From: Myxococcales bacterium
Lineage (GTDB): Bacteria > Myxococcota_A > UBA9160 > UBA4427
DNA length: 64,000 nucleotides
Assembly (NCBI GenBank): GCA_012959805.1
Contig: DUCN01000082.1
Span: 1 to 64,000, forward strand
Direction: 5' to 3'
The notes under the pieces were generated by a model. The model was not told where the DNA came from. It did not search any database and was given only the letters and a program-made list of their open reading frames with translations. A program made the translations under genes and the position numbers. Of the stretch, positions 54,068-56,871 are shown in pieces (the first letter of the stretch is position 1; each line of letters begins with the position of its first letter).

Positions 54068-54613
54068 TCTGAACTCCTGGCTTCGGGCGCGAAGAGAGTC
54101 GTTGCGGAAGAGCTCGGTGCTTCTGGATGTGATCTTTAGGCATTCTCTATGTCAATAGGCCCCTCTTGGCGCAGGGCCGAGGAGTTGGTGACGGCGTGGG
54201 CGAACTCCTCGAGGTCTGCTTTTCGTGATGGCATTTCGGGTCTACTTCTCGCACTCGGGATTGCGAATCGAAGACTTCTGTGATTGCAAGGGCGCGCGAG
54301 CATTGAAAAAGACCATTTCTGACAGATCGAGGCCAGAAAGCCGCCTCTCCCGTGCAATTTACTGAGTTTCCAATCGTAAACAGAGAGTAGATGGTCGACT
54401 GGATGCTGGGATGATCCGGGTGGACATATGGAGACTCTCGTCTGAACGACCTCGCCCTGCTACGACCGCGACCTGAATCACAGGCAGCCCTTGGCGCTTG
54501 CCCATCGAATCCGCGCGCACTTGGGAGGCAGACTCACTACGTTCTTGGGGTTCTCGAAATTCCCGAAGTCGCCGGGCCTCTCTTGGAGAATCGTTCGTTG
54601 GAGACAGCGTCGG
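54068..54613. other. Intergenic region upstream of the sigma factor
   Basis: About 550 bp without a recognised gene. Minus-strand frames (for example 54136-54357) have no clear relatives. The promoter of the sigma/anti-sigma operon should lie in the right part, but no ECF-type -35/-10 pair could be identified by eye. Confidence 0.35.
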
Positions 54614-55210
54614 GTGGATGAGCAGGCAATCAAGTTGATCGTTGACAGGGCGCTCGCTGGCGATGGCGCCGCGTTTGCTGCTTTGTTTCGCGAATACAAG
54701 CGAGACGTATATTGCGTCTGTCGACGGATGTTAGGCCACGCGGAGTCCGCCGAGGACGCCGTGAGCGAGAGTTTTCTTCGAGCTCGTCGCGCGCTGGATG
54801 GGTTTGATCCGGAGCAGCCTTTTCGACCGTGGTTGATCTCGATCGCCGGCCACCATTGTATCGATCAGCTCCGACGCAAGAGTCTCGAGTCCCGAATCTT
54901 CTCAGAGTCTCCAATGGAAGAGTCCCAACTGAAATCGATTGCCCCGTCTGCGCTCGTCCGGATACTGGCGATGGAAGAGAGGCAGTCTTTGGGGCGGGCG
55001 ATCGAAGTCTTGCCGGCGCGATATCGGCTTCCGCTGCTGCTCCGATATTTTGAAGACATGGACTACGAAGCGATTGCAAAGTCGATCGGCGTCACGAAAA
55101 AACAGGTGGGAACGCTGCTCTTTCGGGCGAAGGCGCTGCTTCGAGCGGAAGTCGAATCGATGGCTAATCAGCACTCGAATGGTTTGCGGGTAGGGCGGAG
55201 AAAGAAATGA
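54614..55210 (+). CDS. ECF-type RNA polymerase sigma factor
   Basis: 198 residues from GTG 54614, in frame with a longer open region upstream. Region 2 (about residues 15-90) reads FAALFREYKRDVYCVCRRMLG, AEDAVSESFLRARRAL and RPWLISIAGHHCIDQLRRK; region 4 (125-175) reads ALPARYRLPLLLRYFEDMDYEAIAKS-type core, here as LPARYRLPLLLRY and AIAKSIGVTKKQVGTLLFRAKALLR. Regions 1.1 and 3 are absent, as in group IV sigma factors. It overlaps the following gene by four bases (ATGA), which carries a zinc-binding anti-sigma domain, so the two form a coupled signalling pair. Target promoters are unknown. Confidence 0.93.
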   Translation: MDEQAIKLIVDRALAGDGAAFAALFREYKRDVYCVCRRMLGHAESAEDAVSESFLRARRALDGFDPEQPFRPWLISIAGHHCIDQLRRKSLESRIFSESPMEESQLKSIAPSALVRILAMEERQSLGRAIEVLPARYRLPLLLRYFEDMDYEAIAKSIGVTKKQVGTLLFRAKALLRAEVESMANQHSNGLRVGRRKK

Positions 55211-56871
55211 AAGATTGCCTTCCTGATCAGCTGTATTCGGTTTATGTGGATGGCGAGTCGTCGGCCGAAGACATTCGTTTGGTCGAGTCCCATCTCATCG
55301 GCTGCGAAAAATGTCGAGGCGTGATTCTAGCCCTCGGTGACGAAGCGATAGTGATCGCAGACGTTTTGCATGACCGTCATCGTCTGGCAGATCGAAACCC
55401 GGTAGTGCGCGCGCCGGCGCGCACGCGAGCGAAGGGGTTGGCGATCGGCCTCGGGCCGACCCTGGCGATCGCTGCTCTACTCGTGACGGTGTTGGGATGG
55501 CTGCTTGAGACTCGACTACCCGCTGGGACCAGTTGGATGAATCCGATGAAATGGATTGGAGTGTATGAAATGATCTTCGACCTGATCTTCTTGCTGCGCG
55601 ATCGCGCGCCGGGACTCATCGAATTCACCGTGGCCCTCGGCGCCATGCTGAGTGTTGCCTCGATTCTCACCTTTTTGGTCAGTGCGATTTCAAGGCTCTT
55701 GCTGGGAACTAGTGCACTCCTGCTTTTGCTTACGGCATCGATGTTCACGAGCCCGCCGGTGGCCAACGCTTTCGAGAGTCGGACGAGTAAGGGCGATCTC
55801 GAGGTGGCGATGGATGAAACGGTGGAGGAGAGCCTGTTCATCTCGGCTGAAGTCGTGAGTATCGACGGAACCGTCGACGGCGATCTCGTCGTGCTGGCCG
55901 AACGCATCGTGTTACGCGGAGTCGTTCACGGGAATGTCTTTGCAATTGGTCGCGAAGTTGAGGTGAGCGGGGTGATCGACGGGTCGCTGCATACTGCGGG
56001 TGAACGGGTCACGATCGAGGGAGAGGTCCGCCAGAATCTGTATGGGGCAGCGGAGACGATGACCCTGCACGAACGGGGGCGGATTCGGCGCGACGTGACG
56101 CTTGCCGGTGAATCCGTGCACATGGACGGAAGCGTGGGAAGGGATCTCGTTTCGACAGCGGAGCGTGTCAACATTCGTGGCACGGTGGGTCGAAACGCTT
56201 CGACGGCGAGCGGCCGCCTCACCCTACACGGAAATGTGCGGATTGTCGGTGATCTAGAGTATTCGCTTCCAGACGAGGCTGAGCCGGAGATCATGTCCGG
56301 TGCAGAAATCGGTGGTGAAACGACAGCTGGCGATCTGTTGCAGAAGCTATCGAGGCCGGTCAATCGCTGGGCGAACGGCCATTTCTACATGCGAATGACG
56401 GTCTTTCTTGTTTCCGCGTTTCTCGTCGGAATGGTTCTGCAGGTTCTACGTCCGGACGTTTTCCTAGTCGATCTCGAGACGAGTTCTGATTTTCTTCGGT
56501 CCATGGGCTACGGCGCGATCGGTCTGGTCTGCATTCCGATCGCCCTGATTCTTTGTTTTGTGACCGTCGTTGGAATCCCAATCGGCGTGATTGGCGTCTT
56601 CCTCTACGTCACAATCCTCTTGCTCTCGGTGATTGTCGTCGCTTCGGTCGTCGGGACGTCCATTGCGGCAAGCGCAGGCTTCGAAGGAGAAGGCCTGCAT
56701 GCTTTCGGGATGTCGCTGCTCGTCGGGCTTCTGGTCGTCGTGATCGCGATGAACCTGCCTTTTGTTGGCGGCATCCTTCGACTGCTGGTGGTGATGGTCG
56801 GAGTGGGAATGATCATCATTGCGGCCATCGATGCATGGCAGCATCGGCTGGGTGACGGGTACGCGGGTTGA
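55207..56871 (+). CDS. Membrane anti-sigma factor fused to a bactofilin-like beta-helix
   Basis: 554 residues. Residues 1-45 form a zinc anti-sigma (ZAS/zf-HC2-type) domain: C4, then H29-x3-C33-x2-C36 in ESHLIGCEKC. Hydrophobic segments follow at about 76-98, 117-131 and 139-185. Residues 195-370 consist of repeated short strands such as VVSIDGTVDGDLVVLAERI, VEVSGVIDGSLHTAGERVTI, MDGSVGRDLVSTAERVNIRG and GTVGRNASTASGRLTL, resembling bactofilin or other polymer-forming beta-helices. About five further membrane helices (395-415, 435-460, 463-490, 505-525, 527-545) end the protein. It is coupled to the sigma factor. It probably sequesters sigma at the membrane; the repeat part may sense envelope or lipid state. 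Confidence 0.85.
   Translation: MKDCLPDQLYSVYVDGESSAEDIRLVESHLIGCEKCRGVILALGDEAIVIADVLHDRHRLADRNPVVRAPARTRAKGLAIGLGPTLAIAALLVTVLGWLLETRLPAGTSWMNPMKWIGVYEMIFDLIFLLRDRAPGLIEFTVALGAMLSVASILTFLVSAISRLLLGTSALLLLLTASMFTSPPVANAFESRTSKGDLEVAMDETVEESLFISAEVVSIDGTVDGDLVVLAERIVLRGVVHGNVFAIGREVEVSGVIDGSLHTAGERVTIEGEVRQNLYGAAETMTLHERGRIRRDVTLAGESVHMDGSVGRDLVSTAERVNIRGTVGRNASTASGRLTLHGNVRIVGDLEYSLPDEAEPEIMSGAEIGGETTAGDLLQKLSRPVNRWANGHFYMRMTVFLVSAFLVGMVLQVLRPDVFLVDLETSSDFLRSMGYGAIGLVCIPIALILCFVTVVGIPIGVIGVFLYVTILLLSVIVVASVVGTSIAASAGFEGEGLHAFGMSLLVGLLVVVIAMNLPFVGGILRLLVVMVGVGMIIIAAIDAWQHRLGDGYAG

Follow-up and report, generated by a model that had tools for sequence, protein, structure and literature searches.

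Introduction

Membrane-bound anti-sigma factors of the class I zinc type, such as RsiW, RslA and RskA, carry an N-terminal helical domain with the motif Hx3Cx2C. The domains that have been added to members of this class are thought to serve stimulus perception (PMC7406223). Signal peptidase acts as the site-1 protease on RsiV (PMC6066255) and on RsiP (PMC8844934), and the anti-sigma factor FoxR is shielded from proteolysis by the signaling domain of FoxA (PMC11637429). Bactofilins (PF04519) are beta-helices with 17-residue windings. Those of the classical kind attach to the membrane at its inner face, and a membrane helix at the N-terminus is present in only about 3% of them (PMC12448750). Among the anti-sigma groups described in the literature that we searched, none contains a beta-helix domain, and our search for work linking bactofilin or polymer-forming proteins with anti-sigma factors returned no relevant paper.

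Here we describe a locus that joins these elements. It lies in a stretch of 64,000 nucleotides from a Myxococcales bacterium (contig DUCN01000082.1; hereafter the window). On balance, we read it as an autoregulated ECF module that sets the dose of a membrane protein with a periplasmic beta-solenoid, the maturation of which may be due to signal peptidase. It looks like an apparently undescribed self-regulating module of the cell envelope, not like part of an internal skeleton.

Results and Discussion

Architecture of the Locus

The features on which the following discussion relies are these:

54353..54379, + strand: predicted ECF-type promoter, found as a de novo motif; -35 TGCAATT (54353-54359), 14-base spacer, -10 TCGTAA (54374-54379)
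54614..55210, + strand: ECF sigma factor gene with GTG start and TGA stop, 198 aa (Sigma70_r2, Sigma70_r4_2, TIGR02937)
55207..55210, + strand: ATGA overlap of sigma stop and anti-sigma start, read from the sequence; same four bases in homologous loci
55207..56871, + strand: fused anti-sigma/beta-helix membrane protein, 554 aa, ATG to TGA in a single unbroken frame
55207..55386, + strand: zinc anti-sigma domain, residues 1-60 (C4, D15, H29, C33, C36), from zf-HC2, the RslA match and invariant ligands
55435..55515, + strand: membrane helix 1, residues 77-103; family-averaged hydropathy maximum 2.14, helix in the model
55516..55611, + strand: loop of predicted extracytoplasmic location, residues 104-135; family-averaged charge net negative, conserved columns P113 and G118
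55612..55686, + strand: membrane helix 2, residues 136-160; hydropathy maximum 2.14
55687..55770, + strand: internal signal peptide, residues 161-188, with basic start, hydrophobic core and A186-N-A188; motif in homologues, N-termini of stand-alone relatives
55771..56334, + strand: bactofilin-like beta-helix of 17-residue windings, residues 189-376 (PF04519, AlphaFold2, lag-17 periodicity, 6rib match)
56377..56865, + strand: C-terminal membrane region of five helices, residues 391-553, from hydropathy, the model and homology to the split-gene protein

The sigma gene product was recognized by Pfam through Sigma70_r2 (3.6e-18) and Sigma70_r4_2 (6.8e-14), and NCBIfam classifies it as a generic ECF factor (TIGR02937, 3e-31), the named subgroups shown scoring below their cut-offs. 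An earlier note on this DNA had placed the sigma gene and its ATGA overlap correctly. Since the 4-base overlap with an upstream ECF sigma gene recurs in 18/18 intact homologous loci inspected, the coupling of the sigma and anti-sigma genes is not due to chance. The genome of the window (4.46 Mb, 136 contigs) holds the locus in one copy. One relative has a second copy of the pair (L020, G058:C76), in which the sigma gene is short and degenerate and the anti-sigma protein seems intact.

The zinc motif named in the earlier note (C4, H29-x3-C33-x2-C36) proved well founded. The Pfam model zf-HC2 matches the 554-aa protein above its cut-off (1.3e-5, 25.6 bits against 22.2), and the four ligands together with D15 are invariant in 17 homologues. 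The latter residue lies near helix 1 and is comparable to the D11 contact of RseA (PMC7406223). AlphaFold2, run on 17 sequences, folds this part into three helices; the membrane part that links the domains was poorly predicted. The best structural match is RslA (3hug_F, Foldseek probability 0.98, 35% identity over 49 columns). The protein thus has the characters of a class I zinc anti-sigma factor, namely Hx3Cx2C with an N-terminal ligand, a small helical domain and an ECF sigma factor encoded alongside, and like RsiW, RslA and RskA it is membrane-bound and overlaps its sigma gene. Unlike these proteins, it continues after two membrane helices and an internal signal peptide into a beta-helix and five more helices. 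Evolutionary distances of sigma and anti-sigma proteins are correlated (r 0.62, reached in 0/2000 permutations), a pattern that common ancestry alone could produce.

The beta-helix is likewise well supported. PF04519 matches in three stretches, barely over the cut-off (1.9e-6, 28.5 bits against 27.9), AlphaFold2 models residues 189-376 with a pLDDT of about 92-97 as far as residue 350, and the self-correlation of hydropathy peaks at lag 17 (0.42) and lag 34 (0.30). The top PDB match is the bactofilin of T. thermophilus (6rib, Foldseek probability 0.96); for this match as for RslA the probability is high and the E-value weak, probably as a consequence of the multidomain query. Hydropathy and AlphaFold2 also bear out the five C-terminal helices that the earlier note had listed. 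Its several membrane helices ahead of the beta-helix hold in part: two are ordinary, and the third is signal-peptide-like. Because relatives gain or lose roughly whole windings of 17 residues in the beta-helix (L017, +34 residues; L018, about -117), the domain could alternatively be a passive structural arm. The same genome encodes three separate classical short bactofilins elsewhere (G000:C65, C54 and C98, with 98.7, 90.4 and 59.9 bits).

The Beta-Helix Is Predicted to Lie Outside the Inner Membrane

In every homologue, membrane helix 2 is followed by a basic start and a hydrophobic core that precede the beta-helix. Directly before the beta-helix, 23/24 homologues carry A/S-x-A, with S-E-G in the remaining one; in the window protein the predicted signal peptidase I site falls between A188 and F189. 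Elsewhere in the phylum, homologues that stand alone have an ordinary signal peptide at the N-terminus, in the position of the internal one; for the closest of these, the alignment with the fused protein starts near residue 164. Given a cytoplasmic zinc domain followed by three hydrophobic segments, the beta-helix should emerge outside the inner membrane. The charge balance fits this orientation, residues 161-168 being basic and the beta-helix domain net acidic. A periplasmic beta-helix is accordingly our firm prediction.

The earlier note proposed sensing of envelope shape, polymer assembly or lipid state as a hypothetical role. Read in cytoskeletal terms, the beta-helix would form bactofilin-like polymers at the cytoplasmic side of the membrane and report cell shape. 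In favor of this are the PF04519 score over the cut-off, a bactofilin as top PDB match and the inner-face binding of classical bactofilins (PMC12448750). We consider a cytoskeletal role of this kind very improbable in view of the three hydrophobic segments after the zinc domain, the basic residues before the third of them, the A-x-A after it and the net acidic beta-helix, all of which speak against it, as do the signal peptides of the stand-alone homologues and the three classical bactofilins that the genome encodes separately. Instead of the soluble cytoplasmic core without membrane domain that characterizes bactofilins, the window protein has a beta-helix of predicted location that is flanked by a signal peptide on its N-terminal side and by five membrane helices on its C-terminal side. 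It resembles bactofilins in its 17-residue windings, in the Pfam match just over cut-off and in the best structural match, and differs from the soluble classical ones in being longer, predicted extracytoplasmic and followed by a membrane domain. A cytoskeletal polymer sensor is hence not supported: a conserved signal peptide precedes the beta-helix, whose origin is a separate protein, secreted and anchored in the membrane, that relatives encode beside the anti-sigma gene.

Relatives Encode the Two Halves as Separate Genes

The origin of the window protein is indicated by the large genomes of family f17, where the operon consists of three genes for sigma factor, anti-sigma factor and beta-helix protein. 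The anti-sigma factor of this form (155-200 aa) has Hx3Cx2C, two membrane helices and a short, mostly basic tail, and stops just past helix 2. The third protein comprises a signal peptide, an STN-like domain, a proline-rich linker, a short beta-helix and C-terminal membrane helices. Among the nine three-gene loci in which the anti-sigma gene was located, the anti-sigma and beta-helix genes overlap by four bases in seven and are separated by 1 and 20 bases in the other two; the sigma/anti-sigma junction is a 4-base overlap in 4/4 loci read out. Each half of the window protein aligns with its separate counterpart (hhalign probability 92, E 5e-7 for the anti-sigma domain; 99.4, 1e-21 for the beta-helix with C-terminal helices).

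The STN assignment in the split relatives stands just below the Pfam cut-off (1.9e-6, 28.0 bits against 28.4). The domain has a beta-alpha-beta-type fold and matches FpvA, PupB, the N0 domain of PilQ and the signaling domain of PupR. In family f44, one locus (L118) encodes a sigma factor followed by a single fused protein that retains the STN-like domain, and another (L120) has a frame like that of L118 without the zinc motif. The window protein is devoid of the STN-like domain. From the split operons, the half-by-half homology and the coincident signal peptide, we conclude with high confidence that it arose by in-frame fusion of two neighboring genes, with the junction at the signal peptide.

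The module also invites comparison with FecIRA and FoxIRA, which likewise comprise an ECF sigma factor and a membrane anti-sigma factor; for the split relatives the likeness extends to the third protein, with its periplasmic STN-like domain. Unlike in those systems, the STN-like domain resides on an inner-membrane beta-helix protein and is absent from the window. Neither the window protein nor three anti-sigma factors of the split form had a FecR match in Pfam, and no TonB-dependent receptor was recognized among the conserved neighbors.

Does Signal Peptidase Cut the Fused Protein?

Like RsiV and RsiP, the window protein has a conserved signal peptidase I motif after an anti-sigma membrane segment. 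The two precedents are Gram-positive proteins with unrelated extracellular domains (RsiP being single-pass), and the site of the window protein sits at a gene-fusion junction. We regard cleavage of the fused form by signal peptidase as somewhat favored, though putative; the internal signal peptide could instead serve merely as a membrane anchor.

A cut at this site could also be a regulated event. The anti-sigma factor would then remain an uncut membrane protein whose periplasmic beta-helix senses a ligand or a mechanical cue and triggers regulated intramembrane proteolysis, with A-x-A as the regulated site-1 cut. The conserved A/S-x-A and the site-1 role of signal peptidase on RsiV and RsiP are compatible with such a sensor, as are three site-2-type protease (M50) matches in the genome; M50 proteases are, however, found in 14/14 control genomes. 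DUF4179 and other known guard domains had no Pfam match in the window protein, and the free beta-helix protein of the split relatives has its own signal peptide, which makes constitutive cleavage the simpler assumption. Regulated proteolysis appears unlikely to us.

A Promoter That Appears Private to the Operon

The search for an autoregulated promoter suggested in the earlier note yielded a conserved, autoregulatory-looking motif upstream of the sigma gene, TGCAA(T/G)(T/A)-N14/15-TCGTA(G), which reached a log-likelihood of 129 in 19 relatives compared with 39-48 in Markov shuffles. The three-gene group has a different pair at this place, GAAAT-N14-GCGAA (log-likelihood 79 vs 31-34). About 230 bases (54380-54613) separate the predicted -10 box of the window from the sigma start; in some relatives a start codon comes soon after the -10 box.

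The strict pattern occurs four times in the genome of the window, once upstream of a sigma gene and three times apparently within genes. Across 25 genomes, strict matches outside the operon were no more frequent than those of a reversed-pattern control. With a sequence-only model, this operon was the top genome-wide match in 9/13 genomes in a heuristic scan that scored 150 candidates per genome and missed the site of the window's own genome. The other matches outside the operon, by strict pattern or model, look like chance. Autoregulation of the promoter is thus a prediction that we make with considerable confidence, and the regulon is probably small, as judged from heuristic scans. One good model match in a relative (L088, G016:C387:10595-10622) lies near a methyltransferase gene and a Coq4-like gene and is either an extra target or chance.

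Proposed Working of the Module

We suggest that the locus is the two-gene form of an autoregulated ECF module that is elsewhere encoded by three genes in Myxococcota. The zinc domain would hold the sigma factor in the cytoplasm, and the protein would be inserted with its beta-helix in the periplasm. Signal peptidase I could cut between A188 and F189 and so release the very pair of proteins for which relatives have separate genes. The beta-helix half may then stay beside the anti-sigma half and maintain inhibition until an envelope condition alters this state, much as the FoxA domain shields FoxR, an analogy that rests on the STN-bearing relatives. Freed sigma factor would transcribe its own operon, giving more inhibitor and more beta-helix protein, and the latter is probably also the main output. 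That the beta-helix is both feedback partner and effector strikes us as possible, if short of probable. More tentative still is the generalization that an ECF sigma factor serving its own operon alone and a periplasmic bactofilin-like beta-solenoid control each other, with inhibitor and solenoid made in some lineages as one precursor that signal peptidase splits.

If the precursor reading is true, one inhibitor is made per solenoid, and the operon is a self-dosing envelope module; signaling would then make extracytoplasmic use of the bactofilin fold. The architecture suggests that a transcriptional switch has a bactofilin-like fold beyond the inner membrane as its partner, and maturation of an anti-sigma precursor by signal peptidase becomes sharply testable in this system.

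Distribution and Natural Losses

Matches to the protein occur in 19/61 genomes, which comprise its own and others from its genus, family or order, the full-length matches being about 33-49% identical. In a profile search of 379 genomes sampled within the phylum, full-length fusions were found in the order of the window and in two genomes of family f21 (G376 and G373), where the sigma gene likewise overlaps by ATGA. Structure prediction, HMM search and this survey of relatives all favored the earlier finding of a zinc-binding anti-sigma fold, a beta-helix and a conserved fusion. A scan of GTDB contigs added three close relatives among metagenome-assembled genomes, labeled Myxococcota or "Deltaproteobacteria". 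A tblastn search of plasmids gave no fusion, all matches being stand-alone "polymer-forming cytoskeletal" proteins. Stand-alone copies of the beta-helix are widespread in the phylum, and the role of its many "polymer-forming cytoskeletal" proteins with signal peptides becomes testable.

Two relatives have lost the regulatory half. In G204 (L021, G204:C61), which belongs to the genus of the f21 fusions, neither the sigma gene nor the anti-sigma domain is left. When its DNA was aligned with G376:C148 (L111), membrane helix 2 proved to be joined to the A-x-A site with a loss of about 75 bases. This rearrangement yields a clean secreted protein, and the downstream DNA is collinear and still 84% identical to that of G376. 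The shared beta-helix and membrane part has a dN/dS of 0.25 between G204 and the fused relative; being pairwise, this value does not tie selection specifically to the branch of G204. The window genome has a congener, G002 (L031, G002:C140, about 11.0-12.6 kb), in which the sigma gene is undetectable, the zinc domain contains a stop and a deletion has removed membrane helices 1-2, whereas the frame of the beta-helix is open. A promoter-like CACAATT-N14-TCGTAC seems to be retained at this locus. Since both genomes kept an open beta-helix gene after loss of sigma and anti-sigma functions, the beta-helix half appears to have a use of its own. We also considered that all stand-alone beta-helix proteins represent the ancestral part, and rejected this idea on the basis of the L111 comparison, by which G204 is a derived loss.

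The retention of the beta-helix in G204 and G002 could be taken to mean that this half is purely an effector, an envelope structural or membrane protein, with the fusion securing one anti-sigma per effector and the anti-sigma factor being controlled otherwise. The many stand-alone copies and a promoter that appears private to the operon would suit such a division of labor. Repeated co-operonic linkage, the fusion to an anti-sigma factor and the STN-like domain of the split relatives suggest regulatory contact instead, and we judge a pure effector to be quite unlikely. The series from three genes through fused proteins with and without the STN-like domain to loss of sigma shows which parts belong together.

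Conserved neighbors of the operon are lineage-specific and give no clear hint of function. In seven relatives (G032, G051, G053, G058:C76, G200, G216 and G277), the sigma gene is preceded, on its own strand, by a gene for a PLP enzyme resembling sphingosine-1-phosphate lyase (S1P-lyase-like), and some of these have an additional ECF-like sigma gene farther upstream.
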